A program made the position numbers and the translations under genes. From contig JADLEX010000097.1 in assembly GCA_020845895.1 (NCBI GenBank), positions 1 through 47,180 of the forward strand: a DNA stretch of 47,180 nucleotides. Direction: 5' to 3'. The notes beneath the pieces were generated by a model. It had not been told where the DNA came from. It did not search any database and worked only from the letters and a program-made list of their open reading frames with translations. This DNA is from Deltaproteobacteria bacterium. Its GTDB lineage: Bacteria; Lernaellota; Lernaellaia; JACKCT01. Shown here piece after piece: positions 1 through 11,660 of the stretch; position 1 is the first letter of the stretch, and each line of letters opens with the position of its first letter.

Positions 1-90
1 GCCCCTTGTAGACCACAAGGTTAATAGGCCGGGAGTGTAAGCGCGGCAACGCGTTCAGCTTACCGGTACTAATCGGCCGTGAGGCTTGCC
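1..90 (+). rRNA. 23S rRNA, 3' end (partial)
   Basis: The first ~90 bases match the conserved 3' terminus of bacterial 23S rRNA: the stretches ATAGGCCGGGAGTGTAAGCG, ACCGGTACTAATCGGCC and GTGAGGCTT occur in the expected order (domain VI, helices 98-101). The gene begins outside the window. The 3' boundary is placed by analogy and may be off by a few bases. About 90 nt separate it from 5S, and no tRNA lies in that spacer. Confidence 0.93.
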
Positions 91-179
91 AGGCTGTTCT
101 TCGATCAAAGCCAGGCGATATGCACCCAATGCGGAATTCACTTGTCGAATTGGTTCTTTTTCAATTTCGAATCACGGTT

Positions 180-295
180 TTCGGTGGCTATAGCGGAGAG
201 GTCACACCCGTTCCCATCCCGAACACGGTCGTTAAGCTCTCCAGCGCTGATGGTACTGCACGAGCAATCGTGTGGGAGAGTAGGTCGTCGCCGGA
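180..295 (+). rRNA. rrf: 5S rRNA
   Basis: Conserved 5S core elements are present: TATAGCGGAGAGGTCACACC, CCCATCCCGAACACGG, TTAAGCTCTCCAGCG, GATGGTACTGC and GTGGGAGAGTAGGTCG. Bases 182-188 pair with 287-293 to close helix I, which sets the ends. The length of about 116 nt is normal. It follows 23S in the standard order and is followed at once by a terminator, so the rRNA operon ends here. Confidence 0.95.
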
Positions 296-310
296 TCCAA
301 ATTTCCAAAA

Positions 311-337
311 GGGCGGTTCGAAAGAGCCGCCCGTTTT
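311..337 (+). terminator. Rho-independent terminator of the rRNA operon
   Basis: A perfect 9-bp stem (GGGCGGTTC / GAGCCGCCC with one G-T pair, 311-319 with 324-332) closes a GAAA-type tetraloop and is followed by a run of T. It sits 16 nt after 5S. The remaining ~190 nt before the next gene show no clear gene or RNA. Confidence 0.88.
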
Positions 338-527
338 TATTCCGCCTCGCAAATCGGCCCGGCTCGAATTTCCGCAACGGTCCAGCAGGCGGTTGGCAAC
401 GGGCTCAAAGCCGGATAAAAATCGCCCACTCGCGCCGGCTCGTCGAAGTTCGCCCTTCATCCGGCGCGGGGATTGCGTTGTGTTTCGTTTTCGTCCGCCC
501 CCGCGGATGGATTGAGGGTGGCTCCCG

Positions 528-3086
528 ATGCGTTCGGTGATTGATTTTCAGGTCTCCCCCGCGATTCCCGACAATCTGCGCGTACTTCAGGATCTGGCGT
601 ACAACGTCTGGTGGTGCTGGAACCACGTCGCGATCGACCTCTTCCGGCGCCTCGACGAAGAGCTGTGGGAGAAGACGAGTCACAACCCCGTCGAACTTCT
701 CGGACTGGTGTCGCAAAAGCGTCTCGAAGCTGTCTCGAAAGACGACACGTTTCTGAGTCACATGGAAGCCGCGCACCGGAAGTTTCGCGAGTACATGTCG
801 GCGGGCGATACGTGGTACGCAAAGGAATTCGGCAAGGTCGCCGCGCCGCGATTCGCCTATTTCTCGATGGAATACGGTCTCACCGAGTCGATTCGCATCT
901 ATTCGGGCGGCCTCGGCGTGCTCTCGGGCGACCACCTGAAATCGGCGAGCGACCTGGGATTGCCGCTCGTCGCGGTCGGTCTGCTCTATCAGAAGGGGTA
1001 CTTCCGGCAGTACCTGAATCCCGACGGCTGGCAGCAGGAAAACTACCCCATCCACGATTTCTACAACATGCCGCTCCACCCGGTGACGAACGCGGACGGA
1101 ACGCCGCTCGTGATCCCCATCGAGCTATTCGGCGCGGGCGTGTCGGTGCGTGTGTGGAAAATCCAGGTCGGTCGCGTGCCGCTGTACCTGCTCGATTCGA
1201 ATCTCCCCGAGAACCCGGAGTCGTTTCGCCCGGTCACCGGCCAGCTTTACGGCGGCGATCGCGAGAACCGCATCCGGCAGGAGATCATCCTCGGCATCGG
1301 CGGCTACCGCGCCCTCGTCGCCATGGGGCTCGACCCCGACGTCTGCCACATGAACGAAGGACACTCGGCGTTTCTCGCGCTCGAGCGCATCCGCGTCGTG
1401 ATGAAAAAGTCCGGCCTGTCCTTCGAGGAGGCGCGCGTCGCGTGCTCCGCGGGAAACGTGTTCACCACGCACACCCCGGTACCGGCGGGATTCGACCTGT
1501 TTTCGCGCGATCTGATCGAAAAGTACTTCGTTTACTACGTGAGCGAATTCGGCATCACGACCGATGCGATGCTCGAACTGGGCCGCGAGGACGGCGCCGC
1601 GCAGGATGCGCCGCTCAACATGGCGTATTTCGCCATGCGCAATTCGACGTACATCAACGCCGTCTCGAAACTGCACGGGCAAGTGACCCGCAAGATGGTC
1701 GCGCCGGGATTCCACAACATCCCGCTCGACGAAGTCCCGGTCGTCCCAATCACGAACGGCATTCACATCCGCTCGTGGATCTCGCCGGACATGGCGGAGC
1801 TTTTCCGTCGCTACCTCGGCCCGGAGTGGTACGAGAACATCGTCGATCCCGCCGTCTGGCAGAAAGTCGACCGCATTCCCGACACCGAGCTGTGGCGCAC
1901 GCACGAACGCCGCCGCGAGCGCCTCGTCGCGTACATCCGCGCGAATCTGCTCGCGCAGATCAAGCGGCGCAACGGCACCAGCGAGGAGCAGCGCGACGCG
2001 AGCGAGGTGCTCGATCCGCGCGCCCTCACCATCGGCTTCGCGCGGCGTTTCGCGACCTACAAGCGCGCAAACCTGCTGCTGCGCGACCCCGAGCGCTTCG
2101 CGCGCCTGCTGTCTGATTTCAAAGGACCCGTACAGATCATCTTCTCGGGAAAGGCTCACCCGGCCGATCAATCCGGTAAGGACCTCATCAAGGAGATCAT
2201 CCACTTCACGCGGCGCCACGCCGTGCGTCAGCGCGTCGTCTTCATCGAGGACTACGACCTGGGCGTCTCGCACTATCTGATCGGCGGCGTCGATGTGTGG
2301 CTCAACACGCCGCGCCGTCCGCTCGAAGCGAGCGGGACCTCGGGGATGAAAGTGCTGCCCAACGGCGGACTCAACTGCAGCGTGCTCGACGGCTGGTGGG
2401 CCGAGGCGTATCGACCGGAGGTCGGTTGGGCCATCGGCGCGGGCGAGGAGTACAAGGACGCCGAGACGCAGGATCAAATCGAATCGAATGCGCTCTACGA
2501 CGTGCTCGAAAAAGAGGTGATCCCCGCGTTCTACGACCGTGGCCGCGACGGTCTGCCGCGCCGCTGGATCCAGATGATGAAGGCGTCGATGCGCGAGTTG
2601 TGCGTCGATTACAACACCGATCGCATGGTCCAGCAGTACACGACGATGTTCTACGGCAACTCGCGGCGGTTCTATCGCGAACTCGTGAAAAAAGAGTTCG
2701 AGGGCGCGCGCGAGTTCACGGAATGGCAGCACAAGGTCAAAGCGGCGTGGGAGAGCGTGCGCGTCGAGAACGTCGATTCGAACGGCCAGTCGGCGCACGT
2801 CGTGGGCCAGAATCTCGAGGTCCGCGCGACGCTGCATCTCGGCCCGCTGACGCCCGACGACGTGCATGTCGAGGTGTACGGCGGCCTGCTCGACGGACAG
2901 CACGAGTTCGGCGATAGCATGGTCAGCAAGATGTCGGCGACCAAGAAGCTGAACGAAGGCCGGTGGCTCTATCAGGGCGTTTACGAATGCCACCGCGTCG
3001 GCAAGCACGGCCTCACGATCCGCGTCATGCCGCACCACCGATTCTGCGTGAAGCCCCACGCCATGGGGCTCATCAAGTGGGCGTGA
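528..3086 (+). CDS. glgP: alpha-glucan (glycogen) phosphorylase, short bacterial type
   Basis: An 852-residue GT35 enzyme that phosphorolyses alpha-1,4-glucan to glucose-1-phosphate in the cytoplasm. It belongs to the subgroup with an N-terminal DUF3417-like region (residues ~1-110, LAYNVWWCWN and LWEKTSHNP motifs) rather than to the E. coli type. The core has FSMEYGL and SGGLGVLSGDHLKSASDLG near residues 110-145 and MNEGHSAF near 275. The PLP lysine is expected at K608 in EASGTSGMK, followed by the LDGWWAEAY signature of this subgroup. The ATG at 528 gives the family's usual N-terminus, with a weak GAGGGTGG upstream. It stands alone between the rRNA operon and the convergent trp operon, with only 4 nt separating its stop from the trpA stop and no terminator between them. 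Confidence 0.95.
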   Translation: MRSVIDFQVSPAIPDNLRVLQDLAYNVWWCWNHVAIDLFRRLDEELWEKTSHNPVELLGLVSQKRLEAVSKDDTFLSHMEAAHRKFREYMSAGDTWYAKEFGKVAAPRFAYFSMEYGLTESIRIYSGGLGVLSGDHLKSASDLGLPLVAVGLLYQKGYFRQYLNPDGWQQENYPIHDFYNMPLHPVTNADGTPLVIPIELFGAGVSVRVWKIQVGRVPLYLLDSNLPENPESFRPVTGQLYGGDRENRIRQEIILGIGGYRALVAMGLDPDVCHMNEGHSAFLALERIRVVMKKSGLSFEEARVACSAGNVFTTHTPVPAGFDLFSRDLIEKYFVYYVSEFGITTDAMLELGREDGAAQDAPLNMAYFAMRNSTYINAVSKLHGQVTRKMVAPGFHNIPLDEVPVVPITNGIHIRSWISPDMAELFRRYLGPEWYENIVDPAVWQKVDRIPDTELWRTHERRRERLVAYIRANLLAQIKRRNGTSEEQRDASEVLDPRALTIGFARRFATYKRANLLLRDPERFARLLSDFKGPVQIIFSGKAHPADQSGKDLIKEIIHFTRRHAVRQRVVFIEDYDLGVSHYLIGGVDVWLNTPRRPLEASGTSGMKVLPNGGLNCSVLDGWWAEAYRPEVGWAIGAGEEYKDAETQDQIESNALYDVLEKEVIPAFYDRGRDGLPRRWIQMMKASMRELCVDYNTDRMVQQYTTMFYGNSRRFYRELVKKEFEGAREFTEWQHKVKAAWESVRVENVDSNGQSAHVVGQNLEVRATLHLGPLTPDDVHVEVYGGLLDGQHEFGDSMVSKMSATKKLNEGRWLYQGVYECHRVGKHGLTIRVMPHHRFCVKPHAMGLIKWA

Positions 3087-3090
3087 TCCG

Positions 3091-3875
3091 CTAACGCCCC
3101 ATCAGTCGCGAACATTCGCGCGCAACGGCAGAGGCGACGTTTGCCCGATCCGTTTGCGCGGCGATCAGCCGGACCAACGCACTGCCGACGATAGCGGCAT
3201 CGGCCTGCGCCCACACCGCGCGCACGTGCTCGGGTTCCGAAACGCCGAATCCCGCCGCAATCGGTAGCGCGGTGAATCGGCGCAGGCGATCGACCATGCG
3301 CCCGAGCGACTCGTCCGGCGCGGCGCCCACGCCCGTCACGCCGAGCCGCGACACGAAATACACGTATCCCGTGGAGGCGTCGGCGATTCGCCGCAATCGT
3401 TCGTCGGCGCTGGTGGTCGCGGCGAGAAAAATCGTCGCGAATTCGCGCCCGCGCGCCGCGGCGATCAGGTCGCCCGCGTCCTCGGGCGGAAGATCGGGCA
3501 CGATCACGCCGTCGGCGCCCGCGTCCGCGGCGTCGCGCACGAACGCGTCGAAACCGTGATGCAGGATCGGATTGACGTAGCCCATCAACACGACGGGCGT
3601 GTTGTGCGTGGTGCGAAATTCGCGAATCATCTCGAAGATAGCGCCCATGCGCACGCCCGCGCGCAGCGCCGCCTCGGACGACGCCTGGATGATCGGTCCG
3701 TCGGCGATGGGATCCGAAAACGGAATTCCGACCTCGATCGCGAGACTGCCCGCGTCGGCGGCGGCGCGAAGAATCGCTCCGAAGGTATCGCGGTCAGGGT
3801 AGCCCGCCGTGAAGTACGGAATGAAGCCGCGCGCGTTCTCGCGCAGCGCGCGCTCGAAAGCCGCGTCGATTCGGC

Positions 3876-3879
<4 letters not shown>
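3091..3879 (-). CDS. trpA: tryptophan synthase alpha subunit
   Basis: A 262-residue TIM-barrel subunit that cleaves indole-3-glycerol phosphate to indole and glyceraldehyde-3-phosphate and passes indole through the tunnel to TrpB. The catalytic pair falls at the canonical numbers E49 and D60 ([15 protein letters not shown]). The phosphate-binding segments GVTGVG and AAGFGVS follow. The start is the GTG at 3879: it overlaps the trpB stop as GTGA, and the protein then begins VSRIDAAF, which aligns with family N-termini. A longer reading in this frame runs through trpB and is a shadow. It is the last gene of the trp operon and converges on glgP. Confidence 0.95.
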
Positions 3880-5066
<1,187 letters not shown>

Positions 5067-5077
5067 TTCGGATTGCT

Positions 5078-5701
5078 TCACCTCACTGCCTTGGCGTTCC
5101 GAATGAAATTCGCCACGGCCGCGATGTCTTTCACGCCGGGCGCGGACTCCACACCGCTCGACACGTCCACCGCGAAGGGCCGCAAACGGTGGACCACCTC
5201 CGCGACGTTGTCGGGATCGAGCCCGCCGGCGACGAATAGGCGCGGTCGCGCGATGCCCGCGAGAGCCTTGGCAAGTTCGATATCGAACTGCCGTCCCACG
5301 CCGCCGCGCAGTTTCGAGTCCGGCGTGTCGAGCAGAATCTCGGGCCAGGCGGCGATCGCCTCGTCGTCGGGCGACAGCTCGCGATCCACCGGAATGGCCT
5401 TGATGATCTCGGCGACGTCGGAAAGATCCTCGATCACATCGGGCCCTTCGTCTCCGTGGAGTTGCACCGCGTCGAGTCCCACGTCGAGCGCGATCTCGCA
5501 AATCGTCGGAATCCGCTCGTTCACGAACACGCCGACGAGCTGCACGTTGGGCGCGGCGTCGCGGATGCGCTTCGCGACGTCCGTCGTAACGCGCCGCTTG
5601 GATTTGGCGAAGACGACGCCGAGGTACTCCGCGCCCAGACGCTCGATTTCCCGCGCCTGCTCGGGCTGAGTCACTCCGCAGATTTTCACGCGAACACTCA
5701 T
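5078..5701 (-). CDS. trpF: phosphoribosylanthranilate isomerase
   Basis: A 207-residue TIM-barrel enzyme that converts phosphoribosylanthranilate to CdRP. The general base is C8 in VKICGVT, and the acid Asp lies in [19 protein letters not shown] and the C-terminal DVSSGVE are further family signatures. The ATG at 5701 overlaps the trpC stop as ATGA. It is encoded separately from trpC, unlike the E. coli fusion. Confidence 0.94.
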
Positions 5702-6480
5702 CGCTGCACCAACTCCCGAATTTTCGCGCCCGGGTCCGCGCTCGTGACAATCGATTCGCCGACCAAAATTGCGTGGACCCCGGCCCGGCGCACGCGCTCG
5801 ACGTCGCCCGGCGCGTGAATGCCGCTCTCGGCCACCAGCGTCGTTCCCGCGTCGACCTGCGCCGCGAGGCGGATCGTCGTGTCGAGGTCGACGACGAAAG
5901 TGTCGAGGTTGCGATTGTTCACGCCGATCACGCTCGCTCCCGCGTTCATCGCGCGCTCGAGTTCGCGTTCGTCGTGCACTTCCACCAAGGCCGTCATCCT
6001 GAGCGCGGTCGCGAGGGCGTGCAAGTCCCGAAGCGTCGCGTCGTCCAGCGCGCGGACGATCAGCAGCACCGCGTCGGCGCCCAACGCACGCGCCTCGAAG
6101 ATCTGGTAGGGCTCCAACAGAAAGTCCTTGCGCAGGACCGGCAGGCCCGACGCATCGCGCGCGAGACGGAGGTATTCGGGACGCCCCTGAAAGAACCGAT
6201 CCTCGGTGAGCACCGAAATTGCGTCCGCACCGGCGTCGCGGTAAAGCCGCGCGAAGTGCGCGGGGTCGAGGTCGGCACGCAGCACGCCCTTCGACGGCGA
6301 CGCCTTCTTGATCTCGGCGATCAGGGCGACGCCGTCGGGCCGCCCGAGCGCCGCGCGAAAGTCGCGGGGAGGTTCGGCGGATTCGGCCAGCGCGCGGATC
6401 TCGGCGAGCGAAACACGCCCCGCGCGATCGGCTGTCACGCCACGCACGTGGTTGCAGATGGCCGTCAGAATATCAGCCAC
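5698..6480 (-). CDS. trpC: indole-3-glycerol phosphate synthase
   Basis: A 260-residue TIM-barrel enzyme that closes the indole ring from CdRP. E56 and K58 in [12 protein letters not shown] are the catalytic residues. [18 protein letters not shown] and VAESGI are the usual further motifs. The start is the GTG at 6480, which overlaps the trpGD stop by 8 nt and gives [12 protein letters not shown]. The longer upstream ATG reading lies over trpGD and is rejected. The gene ends in an ATGA overlap with trpF. Confidence 0.93.
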
Positions 6481-8056
6481 GAGTGATCTCGATGAAGGTG
6501 TCGAGGACGCGTCGGGCCGAGCCGGAGTCGATCGATCGCCGCGCGGTCTCGATGCCGGAGGCCAGATCGGCGGCGACGCCCGCGACGACGAGCGCGGCGG
6601 CGGCGTTGAGCAGCACCACGTCGCGCCGGGGGCCCGTTTCGCCGCCCAGAATCGCCAGGGCAATTTTGCGATTGAGCGGCGGCGCGCCGCCTTCCAGATC
6701 CTCGGGGCGGCAGAGTGTGAAATCGAACCGGCGCGGGTCGATTTCGTATTCGGTGATCGCGCCGTCCTTGAGTTCGCAAACGCTGGTCGCGCCGGTCAGC
6801 GTGATCTCGTCGAGCCCGTCGTGGCCGTGCACGACCATCGCGCGCTCGGCGCCCAGCAGGCGCAGCACCTCGGCGAAAAACCGCGTGAGCCGCGGCTCGT
6901 ACACGCCGATGAGCTGGCGCTTCGCCCCGGCGGGATTCGTGAGCGGACCGAGCATGTTGAAAAGGGTGCGGATGCCGATCTCGCGGCGCGGTTCGGCGGC
7001 GTACTTCATCGCGCCGTGGTGCGTGGGCGCGAACGCGAATCCGAACCCGACGCTCGCGAGGGCCCGCTCCATGCGCTCGCTGGGCGCAGCGATGTTCGCG
7101 CCGAGTTCGGCCAGCACGTCGGCGCTGCCGCACTTGCTCGACACCGATCGATTGCCGTGCTTGGCGACCGACGCGCCCGCGCCCGCCGCGACGAAGGCGG
7201 CGACCGTGGAGATATTGAACGTTTGCGCGCCGTCGCCGCCGGTGCCGCACGTGTCGATCACGCCGGGCGACGCGACGAGCGGTTTCGCGAATCGCCGCAT
7301 GGTGCGTGCGCAGGCGGCGATCTCCTCGGGCGTCTCGCCTTTCTGGCGCATCGCGACGAGCCACGCCGCGATCTGCGCGGAGGTGGCGTGGCCGGACATG
7401 ATGTCCTCGAGCACCTCGCCCGCGCCGTCGCCCGGCAGGTGTTCGTGTCGCGCGGCAAGGCGGATGCCGTCGCGGATCGTCACGCGCGAACGTCCCCCGG
7501 TCAGGAAGTTGCGCACGAGTAGGCGGCCCTGCTGAGTGAGAATCGATTCGGGATGGAACTGCACGCCCTCGACCTGAAAGTGCCGGTGACGCACCCCCAT
7601 GATCTCGCCGTCGGGCGCGGTCGCGGTGACGATGAGATCCGCGGGCAGCGTGTCGCGGTCGATGACGAGGGAATGGTAGCGCGCGACGGTGAGCGGATTG
7701 TCGAGGCCCGTGAACACCATCTGGCCGTCGTGGCGGATGTCCGACGTCTTGCCGTGCAGAAGCTGCCGCGCGCGGACGATGCGCCCGCCGAACGCCGCGC
7801 CGATCGACTGGTGACCGAGGCAGACGCCGAGCACGGGGACTTTGCCGGCGAAGTGCCGGATCGCGGCGACCGAGATGCCCGCTTTGTCGGGGTCGCAGGG
7901 GCCGGGCGAGATCACGAGGCGATCGGGCTTCATCGCCTCGATCTGCGCGACGGTCAGCTCGTCGTTGCGAACGACGCGGACCGGCTCGCCTTCCTGCTCG
8001 AAGTAGTGGGCGAGGTTCCAGGTGAACGAGTCGTAGTTGTCGATGAGAACGAGCAT
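6473..8056 (-). CDS. trpGD: anthranilate synthase glutaminase fused to anthranilate phosphoribosyltransferase
   Basis: One uninterrupted 527-residue reading frame carries both functions. Residues 1-~190 are a class I glutamine amidotransferase that supplies ammonia to TrpE, with Cys79 in GVCLGHQ and His168/Glu170 in GVQFHPES. Residues ~195-527 are anthranilate phosphoribosyltransferase, with the [21 protein letters not shown] site, [19 protein letters not shown]-type motif and [10 protein letters not shown]. The ATG at 8056 is preceded by GGAGGT ten bases upstream, which overlaps the end of trpE. The same fusion is known from enterobacteria, whereas many lineages keep trpG and trpD apart. No stop or frameshift is seen at the junction. 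Confidence 0.94.
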
Positions 8057-8064
8057 CGCGCGCC

Positions 8065-9537
8065 TTACCTCCGCTCCACGTGGCCGGCCGCGCCAAGCAG
8101 CACCATCGCCTTGTTGCGCGTCTCCTCGTACTCGGAATCCGGGTCCGAATCGGCCACGATGCCCGCACCCGCCTGGATGTACGCGCGATCGCCCTTCACG
8201 AGAATCGTGCGGATCGTGATGCACGAGTTCAGGTTTCCCGAGTTGCTGAAATAGCCCACGATCCCCGCGTAGGGGCCGCGACGCACCGGTTCGAGTTCCT
8301 CGATGATCTCCATCGCGCGTACCTTCGGCGCGCCGGAAACGGTCCCCGCGGGAAAGGTCGCGCGGATCGCGTCGAACGCGTTGCGCCCATCGCGCAGGCG
8401 GCCCTCGACGTTCGAGACGATGTGCATGACGTGCGAGTATTGCTCGACCGTCATGAACTGCGTGACCTCGACCGAGCCCGGCTCGCACACGCGCGACAGA
8501 TCGTTGCGCCCGAGATCGACGAGCATCACGTGCTCGGCGCGCTCCTTTTCGTCGGCGAGCAGGTCGCGCGCGCGCTCGGCATCCTCGCGGGCGTCCTTGC
8601 CGCGGCGTCGTGTCCCCGCGATCGGGCGCAGCGTCACGCGCCCGCTCTCGACCTTGACGTGCACCTCGGGCGACGCGCCGATCAACTTCAGGTCTTCGAA
8701 GTTCAGATAAAACATGTACGGAGACGGGTTCGTCGTCCGCAGCGATCGGTACAGGTCAAAGGGATCGCCTTCGAAGTCCACCTCGAATCGCTGCGAGAGA
8801 ACGGTCTGCAGAATGTCGCCGGCGCGGATGTACTCGCGGCAGCGCTCGACGGCTGCCGTGAAACCGGGCTTGTCGAAGGTGCTGCGCACGCCCTCGTCGC
8901 CGAACGGGGCGCCCCGCCGAACCGGCCGTTTGACGGTGCTCGTCTGAAGTTCGTTCGCGATTTGGGTGACCTTGCGCGAAGCGCGTTCCCACGCCGCCTC
9001 GGGATCGCCGTTGACGCGCGCGTAGGTGCCGATGGTGAGCATGTTCGTCACGCGGTCGAAGACCACGACGATCTCGGGAAACATGAAATAGAAGTCGGGC
9101 AGGTCGAGGTCGTCGGGGTTGACGGACGGAAGCCGCTCGAAGTCGCGCACGACATCGTACGACAGGTACCCCACCGCGCCGCCGACGAAGGGCGGAAGCG
9201 ACAGATCCGGCGCGGGGCGCTGATCGGCGAAGAGGTCTTCGAGCAGGCGCAGCGGGTCGCGGCCATACTCGACGTCGCGGGTTTCGGTGCCGGTACGGAT
9301 CGTCGCGCGGCCGGCCTTGCCCTTCACCACGGTCAGCGGATCGATCCCGAGGAACGAGTATCGGCCGATCGCGTCGCCACCCTCGACCGATTCGAGCAGA
9401 AAACTTTCGCGCGTGCGCGCGAGGGTCATGTAGGCCGACACCGGTGTGTCGAGGTCGTGCAGGATTCTCGTGTGAACCGCGACCAGATTGCCCTCGCGGG
9501 CGAGTTCCAGAAATTTCGACTTGTCCGGCTCGATCAT
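8065..9537 (-). CDS. trpE: anthranilate synthase component I
   Basis: A 490-residue chorismate-utilising enzyme that makes anthranilate from chorismate and ammonia, the committed step to Trp. The C-terminal chorismate-binding domain shows [28 protein letters not shown] and [15 protein letters not shown]. The N-terminal FLLESVEGG carries the LLES feedback-inhibition motif, so end-product inhibition by Trp is expected. The ATG at 9537 has GGGAG eight bases upstream. A GTG at 9570 would add 11 residues but lies inside the attenuator terminator hairpin, so it is rejected. It is the first structural gene of the operon. Confidence 0.95.
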
Positions 9538-9557: not shown

Positions 9558-9588
9558 AAAAAAGAGCCACGGGGTTTCTCCCGTGGCC
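9558..9588 (-). terminator. trp attenuator terminator (arms 3:4)
   Basis: On the minus strand GCCACGGG (9587-9580) pairs perfectly with CCCGTGGC (9573-9566) around a 6-nt loop and is followed by TCTTTTTT (9565-9558). It lies 21 nt before the trpE start and after a Trp-rich leader ORF, as an attenuator should. Confidence 0.9.
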
Positions 9589-9644
9589 TTTGGCGTTGTC
9601 GTCTTGTCTCGCGCGGCGTTCACGGGCGTCCGTTTAGCGGACGC
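9580..9644 (-). promoter_or_regulatory. trp leader: 1:2 hairpin and competing 2:3 antiterminator
   Basis: Arm 1 (9644-9638, GCGTCCG) pairs with arm 2 (9632-9626, CGGACGC) around CTAAA, which includes the leader stop codon. The 3' part of arm 2, CCCGTG (9626-9621), can instead pair with CACGGG (9585-9580) in the 5' half of the terminator. After a 3-nt bulge, GCC/GGC extends this pairing by three more pairs. Arm 1 begins 1 nt after the second Trp codon. A ribosome stalled there would cover arm 1 and free arm 2 to block the terminator. A ribosome at the stop codon would cover arm 2 and let the terminator form. Confidence 0.82.
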
Positions 9645-9711
9645 GCCACCAACCCAAACAGAGGGGATTCACTCCCGATGACCGGGTATTCACTCGAACG
9701 CCGTTGTTCAT
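9634..9711 (-). CDS. trpL: trp operon leader peptide
   Basis: A 25-codon ORF, ATG at 9711 and TAA at 9636-9634, ending LGWWRVR with two adjacent Trp codons (21 and 22) three codons before the stop. Position and structure match ribosome-mediated attenuation: the Trp codons sit just before arm 1 of the leader hairpin. No good Shine-Dalgarno is visible. In-frame GTG codons 7 and 14 are alternative starts that keep both Trp codons. Confidence 0.85.
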   Translation of the reverse strand: MNNGVRVNTRSSGVNPLCLGWWRVR

Positions 9712-9717
9712 GTCGCC

Positions 9718-9746
9718 AACAAAACCGATTTCCCCCCGCGCGTCAA
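9718..9746 (-). promoter_or_regulatory. possible trp promoter
   Basis: TTGACG (9746-9741) is a 5/6 match to the -35 consensus. A 17-nt spacer leads to TTTGTT (9723-9718), a poor -10 match. It falls in the 41-nt gap between the upstream gene's stop and trpL. If real, transcription would start at or next to the trpL ATG, making trpL leaderless. Read-through from the upstream genes is the alternative. Confidence 0.35.
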
Positions 9747-9752
9747 GAGCCG

Positions 9753-11660
9753 TCAGCGCGTCACGAGCTGTCGCCGCGCGGGGAGCACGTAGCCGCGCAC
9801 GACCTCGTAACGACCCGCGCGCTCGAGTTCATCGTGCAGCGTCTCGCGCAGTCGCCGCGCCGTCGACGGTGTCCGCACGGCGATATTCTTCGATTCCTCC
9901 GGGTCGTAAAGCACGTCGTACAGTTCGTGAACCACGCCGCTCGGGGTCGGCATGGCGATGAGCTTGTATCGCCCGTCGAAGATCGCGCGGTGGCGCGCGA
10001 CATCGACCACGTCCGTGAAGCGTTCCTGAAATTCGGGTGTGCCGTCGAACCCCGACCAGCGAATCATGTTGCGCGCGTCGGGGTAGGGGATGCGTTCGTC
10101 CAACGTGAGTCCTCCGGCGTCGGCGTTTCGCCACAAGGCCGTCTCGAAGACGAGGTGCGACCGCCCGGGGATCTCGCCGCGGGCCACGCGCGCCAGGTCG
10201 AGTCCGCTCCACGAACGGTCAACCGGCGCGCCCACGAGCGCCGCCAGCGTCGGGGCGATGTCGGCGACGCTGACCAGGTCGAACACATGCGCCCCGGAGG
10301 GCATTCGAGAAGGCGCGTGAAGTACGATCGGCACGCGCAGTTCGTCCGCGTGCTGCATGCGCTCGCCGACCGCGTCCTCGTCCGCCCGAACCGCCGTGAG
10401 CACCACGATCGTTTCGCGTCCCTGGGGCGACGACGCGATCTCCTCGACGAGCCGGGCGACCTGCGCGAGCGTTTCGTCCCCCGTGTCGGAACCGTCGGGT
10501 GATCCGCTGAGGTCGATCGCGGGCCGACCGACGACGATCATCGTGAAACGCGGCTCATACACCGGTCGTCCGACGCGGCGAAGCGCTTCGTCGACGACCA
10601 GTTCGGGATTGGGTCCGGCGGCGAGGGTGTACGCGGGCATCGCAATCCCGCGCGTCGCCAGCGCGCCCCAGATCGGCAGCGCGGTTTTCGTCGCGCCGAT
10701 CGCGCGCACCCGCGCGGCGCGGCGCATCGACCAGACCGGGGCGCGGACGCGATCGAACCCGGTCGCGCGTCTCGTGAAAGGCTCGCCCGCCCGATCGGCA
10801 ATGAGCGTCGTCACGTACCCCAGCGAGTGCAGCGCCGAGGCGAGCGAGCCGTCGCGCGCGGGCGCGGATCGCGACGCATCCGTCCGCACGGGGGTCTCCC
10901 ACGGCAATCGCCCGGTGACGATCGTGCCCGCGGCGTCGGCCATCGTCGCGACCGGAACGTACGCTTCCTCGAAGACGGTCGACGATTCCAGCCACTCCGC
11001 GAAACGTGCGTCGATCCCCGCCGCGGATTCGAGATTCGTGGTGTCGAGCGACGACATGACGACGAGCACAATGTCAGGCTTGCGCGGATCGCCGGGCTTG
11101 GACGGCGAGGGCGTCGGCGGTGGTTCGGCGAGAAACCACGCCGCGGCGACGACGCCGACGAACATCGCGGCGAGACCGGCAAACGATCGATCGCGGCCGA
11201 GACGCAAAGCAACGATGGCCGCGACGGGAAGACACAACGTCATGGCGTAGTCGGGAGAATCGCGAAGAAAGTCGAGCGCCCAGGACCACAGCCCCCTTGG
11301 GACCCACTCGGGAGGGAGATACAACCCGGGATGAAGCCCGAGATCGCGAAGAAGAACCGCCGCGACCGTCGTCGTGGAAAACGCGAAAGCGATCCGGCCC
11401 GCCCGGGGCGACGGCCGAACGGCCAGGGGGATCGACAGGAGCGCGCCGAACAGCAGATGCGCGCCCAGGAGCCCCAGATGAACGAGCCCCATGTCGTTCT
11501 GGATTTGAACCGGCGCGGTGGAATCGTTGACGAACAGCACGCCGCGTTCCGCCGCGGCCGACCATGCGAGCCCGATGAACTGCATGAACGCCGCCCCGAA
11601 CGCGCCGGTGGCGACGATGCCGGCACGGCTGATCGCGGAGTGGGACGTCTTGCTCGTCAT
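9753..11660 (-). CDS. membrane-anchored sulfatase-like protein, probably altered active site
   Basis: 635 residues. About five hydrophobic segments occupy residues ~13-185, and an extracytoplasmic alkaline-phosphatase-superfamily domain follows. The domain order fits sulfatases: PDIVLVVMSSLD (first strand), VATMADAAGTIVTGRLPWE (nucleophile helix), and a C-terminal RSHLVFETALWRN...DGRYKLIAMP...ELYDVLYDPEESKN. The RYKLI and ELYD-PEE motifs are typical of the sulfatase C-terminus. The metal-binding Asp expected in the first motif (DTLR in active members) reads SSLD, and no CxPSR-type nucleophile is present, so the catalytic role is doubtful. The ATG overlaps the upstream sulfatase-like gene as ATGA. 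The gene ends 41 nt before trpL. Substrate unknown. Confidence 0.75.
   Translation of the reverse strand: MTSKTSHSAISRAGIVATGAFGAAFMQFIGLAWSAAAERGVLFVNDSTAPVQIQNDMGLVHLGLLGAHLLFGALLSIPLAVRPSPRAGRIAFAFSTTTVAAVLLRDLGLHPGLYLPPEWVPRGLWSWALDFLRDSPDYAMTLCLPVAAIVALRLGRDRSFAGLAAMFVGVVAAAWFLAEPPPTPSPSKPGDPRKPDIVLVVMSSLDTTNLESAAGIDARFAEWLESSTVFEEAYVPVATMADAAGTIVTGRLPWETPVRTDASRSAPARDGSLASALHSLGYVTTLIADRAGEPFTRRATGFDRVRAPVWSMRRAARVRAIGATKTALPIWGALATRGIAMPAYTLAAGPNPELVVDEALRRVGRPVYEPRFTMIVVGRPAIDLSGSPDGSDTGDETLAQVARLVEEIASSPQGRETIVVLTAVRADEDAVGERMQHADELRVPIVLHAPSRMPSGAHVFDLVSVADIAPTLAALVGAPVDRSWSGLDLARVARGEIPGRSHLVFETALWRNADAGGLTLDERIPYPDARNMIRWSGFDGTPEFQERFTDVVDVARHRAIFDGRYKLIAMPTPSGVVHELYDVLYDPEESKNIAVRTPSTARRLRETLHDELERAGRYEVVRGYVLPARRQLVTR

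Follow-up and report, generated by a model that had tools for sequence, protein, structure and literature searches.

Trp attenuators of the classical type have been described in proteobacteria and actinobacteria (PMC1262725, PMC4833913). The trpL mRNA of Sinorhizobium meliloti is leaderless and begins at its ATG, and a trans-acting rnTrpL/peTrpL has been reported from the same organism (PMC7298713). The trpL of Streptomyces lividans is also leaderless (TrpL1 MFAHSTRNWWWTAHPAAH; PMC8079986).

The trp operon leader described here lies in a stretch of 47,180 nucleotides (hereafter the window), and its attenuator resembles the classical ones in every respect testable here. With E. coli trpL (RF00513) it shares a Trp-Trp (WW) leader peptide, the 1:2, 2:3 and 3:4 pairings, a terminator before trpE and a fused trpGD. 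It differs in having no sequence homology to E. coli trpL (18.4 bits against a cut-off of 41, the level of chance matches elsewhere), in belonging to a phylum where no TrpR was found, and in a leader that has no Shine-Dalgarno sequence and is probably leaderless. The trpL-trpE(G) system of S. meliloti has a leaderless trpL, as predicted for the window, and no transcriptional repression of the operon has been reported (PMC7298713); its peptide, however, is 14 amino acids long and controls trpE(G) only, whereas the entire trp pathway lies downstream in the window. The attenuators of Streptomyces and Corynebacterium (PMC1262725) have a WW or WWW leader and a GC-rich terminator with a U-tract, and are leaderless in S. 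lividans; the GGCC core of their alternative pairings is also present in arm 3 of the window and of two relatives described below (G002 and G003). They differ in phylum and operon layout, and by inspection no sequence can be aligned past the Trp codons.

Architecture of the trp operon leader

We conclude that the leader is very probably a classical ribosome-mediated attenuator of transcription, one whose leader peptide is probably translated from a leaderless mRNA. All of its parts are on the minus strand and fall in the interval that separates trpE from a sulfatase-like gene ending at 9753; a complete trpE-GD-C-F-B-A operon follows on that single strand (Table 1). The initial annotation had reported a complete trp attenuator without giving its strand; the element is real and was read correctly. 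The 25-codon open reading frame, the perfect 7-bp 1:2 hairpin beginning 1 nt past the second TGG, and the pairing of CCCGTG with the 5' arm of the terminator (CACGGG, 9585-9580) were all recovered, the last of these further extended by GCC/GGC. The 8-bp terminator with its T-run was also as described, but 20 nt, not the claimed 21, separate the run from the trpE ATG. Every part stands at the distance expected of the classical arrangement. In the computed fold the 1:2 hairpin is lengthened by the Trp codons, which pair with CCGT, and the antiterminator is mutually exclusive with both the 1:2 and the 3:4 hairpins. The trpE start codon is preceded by GGGAG (Shine-Dalgarno duplex of -7.4 kcal/mol).

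Table 1. Features of the trp leader and operon in the window.
Feature	Position	Strand	Details
Predicted sigma-70-type promoter	9746..9718	-	-35 TTGACG 9746-9741, 17-nt spacer, weak -10 TTTGTT 9723-9718
Leader peptide ORF (trpL-like)	9711..9634	-	25 codons, MNNGVRVNTRSSGVNPLCLGWWRVR and stop; end LGWWRVR
Regulatory codons TGG TGG (Trp21-Trp22)	9651-9646	-	kept in 4/4 trp-encoding phylum genomes and in L003
1:2 (protector) hairpin	9644-9626	-	GCGTCCG (9644-9638)/CGGACGC (9632-9626), 7 perfect pairs, loop CTAAA
Region 2, 5' half of antiterminator	9626-9610	-	CCCGTG 9626-9621, GCC 9617-9615, GCG 9612-9610
Region 3	9588-9580	-	GGCCACGGG, common to antiterminator and terminator
3:4 intrinsic terminator	9588-9558	-	GCCACGGG-loop-CCCGTGGC, 8 bp, then T6 (9563-9558)
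trpE, first structural gene	8065..9537	-	PF00425 E = 9e-98, PF04715 E = 6e-38; ATG 9537
trpGD fusion, trpC, trpF, trpB, trpA	3091..8065	-	PF00117 + PF00591 (one ORF), PF00218, PF00697, PF00291, PF00290

TrpG and TrpD form a single protein (window 6476-8065, minus strand), as in E. coli; the fusion is also found in L003, a MAG contig from another phylum discussed below. The far end of the window (1-3086) holds the end of a 23S rRNA and a 5S rRNA, followed by a glycogen/starch phosphorylase-like gene (528-3086, named by eye) that converges on the trp operon.

Comparison with shuffled sequences gave z = -2.6 for the fold of the complete leader and showed that the hairpin after the WW codons is matched by 0.7% of shuffles (p = 0.007) and that the 2:3 pairing is matched by 1.6% (p = 0.016). 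Between 9480 and 9830 the terminator of Table 1 is the sole terminator-like site (1 found, 0.3 expected). We also scanned both strands of 2.3 Mb of the same genome, about half of it, where 345 terminator-like sites yielded four pairings with a W-rich mini-ORF; the window holds the only convincing combination of a WW mini-ORF and a strong terminator. One other pairing in these 2.3 Mb scored above 10, and was rejected: its ORF has only W.W and overlaps its own hairpin. The scan revealed no convincing attenuators with His, Phe, Ile/Leu/Val or Thr runs.

The predicted promoter is the best-scoring site in the region, although a plain consensus promoter scan gave no site. Its predicted +1 coincides with the A of the ATG of the leader (9711). 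The same spacing between promoter and leader start recurs in three relatives, and the predicted +1 falls no more than 2 nt from the start codon of the leader in each of the phylum's four trp-encoding genomes. None of the four leader starts has a Shine-Dalgarno sequence, while the trpE starts mostly have one. Because of this placement and the absent Shine-Dalgarno sequence, the leader mRNA is probably leaderless, a feature absent from the initial annotation. In each genome the -35 box of the region's best promoter reads TTGACn; since the -10 boxes are weak, the leaderless start is a prediction.

Conservation and divergence within the phylum

Seven genomes from three families represent the phylum in our sample. 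TrpE and TrpC are encoded in four: the window genome, G001 and G002, which form one family, and G003, the most distant of the four. The other three (G004, G005 and G006, family f3), two of them 96% complete, have neither trpE/PF00425 nor TrpC (PF00218). The family seems to have lost the capacity to make tryptophan and, PF00425 being absent, pabB-type enzymes too.

Upstream of trpE, all four trp-encoding genomes carry a mini-ORF with the same nine bases, TGGTGGCGC (Trp-Trp-Arg). A hairpin follows directly in each case, with different arms (GCGTCCG/CGGACGC, GCCCGG/CCGGGC, CTCTAT/ATAGAG and GGCG/CGCC; combined p = 8e-5), and beyond it lies a terminator-like hairpin followed by a run of U. Arm 3 is 63, 64 and 64 nt from the first Trp codon in the window, G001 and G002, and 43 nt from it in G003. 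The leader peptides of G001 and G003 are MDAHSARPLACSLPIWWRRRITPDA and MVDKAVVQVLQAVQIKGWWRSMQ, respectively. The leader frame of G002 ends RRWWRPEDRAA and has no ATG, GTG or TTG start in frame, an apparent frameshift; an intact leader would require either an uncommon start codon or one more base than the assembled sequence contains. Since the trpE of G002 is likewise split between frames, the assembly is probably at fault.

The antiterminator is supported in three of the four genomes (p = 0.0065 and 0.039 in addition to the value for the window). In G003 the 2:3 pairing is weak (-13.5 kcal/mol, p = 0.71), and support is therefore limited to the leader, hairpin and terminator. The pabB-like paralogues in the trp-encoding genomes lack the WW leader architecture; one of them, a second chorismate-binding paralogue at G000:C165 (locus L002), follows a glutamine amidotransferase gene (pabA/pabB-like).

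With its architecture present in all four genomes, the attenuator is kept by selection in these relatives. The reading as a ribosome-mediated trp attenuator, for which the initial annotation had proposed related genomes as a check, is supported by them: the WW codons are kept in every one and the hairpins persist with altered sequence, although the 1:2 regions of the four genomes yielded no demonstrable column-wise covariation with MAFFT/RNAalifold, the leaders having diverged too far for their hairpins to be aligned.

We also looked for other tryptophan-dependent regulators. In the window's phylum neither TrpR nor a TRAP protein (PF02081) was found, and the T-box covariance model matched neither the window nor the phylum. 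Pfam and NCBIfam have no model that matches the leader peptides of the phylum. Matches to RF00513 were no better than chance and turned up in each of the seven genomes, even the ones with no trp genes, and its result is therefore evidence neither way; the Rfam Trp_leader model describes a single sequence lineage, not the mechanism.

Proposed mechanism and alternative readings

The established attenuation mechanism is Yanofsky's trp model, and by analogy with it the switch in the window would read charged tRNA-Trp. RNA polymerase would start at or beside the leader ATG, with a ribosome presumably loading on the 5' end. When charged tRNA-Trp is abundant, the ribosome would reach the UAA at 9636 and cover region 2 (9632-9621), no antiterminator would form and the terminator would stop transcription ahead of trpE. 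When it is scarce, the ribosome would stall on the two UGG codons and cover arm 1 (9644-9638), leaving region 2 free to pair with region 3 while region 4 has yet to be transcribed, and the polymerase would continue into trpE-GD-C-F-B-A. In a transcript that is not translated, the 1:2 hairpin would form and termination would result.

Folds computed with the ribosome positioned by hand and transcription cut before arm 4 reproduce this classical logic. With the ribosome on the Trp codons, the 2:3 pairing amounts to -15.9, -20.4 and -26.3 kcal/mol in the window, G001 and G002, respectively, and drops to -7.3, -5.3 and -5.2 kcal/mol once the ribosome is moved to the stop codon. The terminator wins every time when the entire RNA is folded thermodynamically; as in the classical model, antitermination would rest on co-transcriptional folding.

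The hairpin lies about 165 nt past the stop of the sulfatase-like gene and on the same strand, and it might thus be no more than the ordinary terminator of that gene, next to a mini-ORF whose WW codons are coincidental. We consider this highly improbable: WW codons, a hairpin after them and a terminator-like hairpin recur upstream of trpE in G001, G002 and G003, 2.3 Mb of the window genome hold essentially no second example of the arrangement, and a terminator 20 nt from trpE would separate the operon from its predicted promoter. Scarcely more credible is a leader that acts at another level, either by coupling trpE translation to that of the leader peptide or through its RNA or peptide in trans, as with rnTrpL/peTrpL of S. 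meliloti. A terminated leaderless RNA would indeed arise whenever tryptophan is plentiful, for which there is precedent (PMC7298713). However, the distance from the leader stop to trpE and the terminator in between speak against translational coupling, the attenuator geometry suffices to explain the element, and a role in trans could add to attenuation instead of replacing it. Ribosome-mediated attenuation of transcription remains the preferred reading.

Occurrence beyond the phylum and significance

A strict scan of other phyla found leaders with WW codons and a terminator at 4 of 79 trpE loci, compared with 3 of 2726 control windows; the former count is a lower bound, since the strict terminator rule misses G001-G003. 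Among the strict matches are three Desulfobacteria/'Deltaproteobacteria' MAGs (L025, L067 and L070), with WW or WWW leaders and terminators. The initial annotation's remark that such attenuators are best known from gamma- and alpha-proteobacteria and some actinobacteria is fair, but Trp-codon trpE leaders thus extend to these MAGs as well. In L067 a near-consensus promoter places +1 exactly at an ATG, and leaderless trp leaders may therefore be more widespread.

In the TrpE tree the four members of the phylum group together (support 0.965), and their sister (support 0.996; 57% identity) is the TrpE of L003, a contig of a MAG labelled Spirochaetales whose genome is absent from the listing of the window's phylum. 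This locus (JAFGQJ010000239.1, 2747-6984) has the trpE-trpGD-trpC order of the window and a WW leader of its own, MNRNILCSIWVWWSGPHGPPG, with a terminator. Other full-length TrpE matches from the phylum of L003, a larger group, are at most 50% identical. The sister TrpE, the shared gene order and the WW leader suggest that operon and attenuator were transferred together between phyla; contamination of the MAG contig is another possible source of the likeness. Tentatively, and with somewhat less than even confidence, we propose that tryptophan synthesis in this phylum, without TrpR, TRAP or T-boxes, was ancestrally controlled by a leaderless attenuator, and that this attenuator moved between phyla with the trpE-GD-C operon.

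The device is of a well-known type, and the picture of how attenuation works is unchanged. What is new is that the range of classical trp attenuation is extended to a small, little-studied and uncultured phylum, across which the device has been kept while its sequence has been almost wholly rewritten. Together with the leaderless trpL of alphaproteobacteria and actinobacteria, the locus points to the leaderless start as a design that recurs among such switches.
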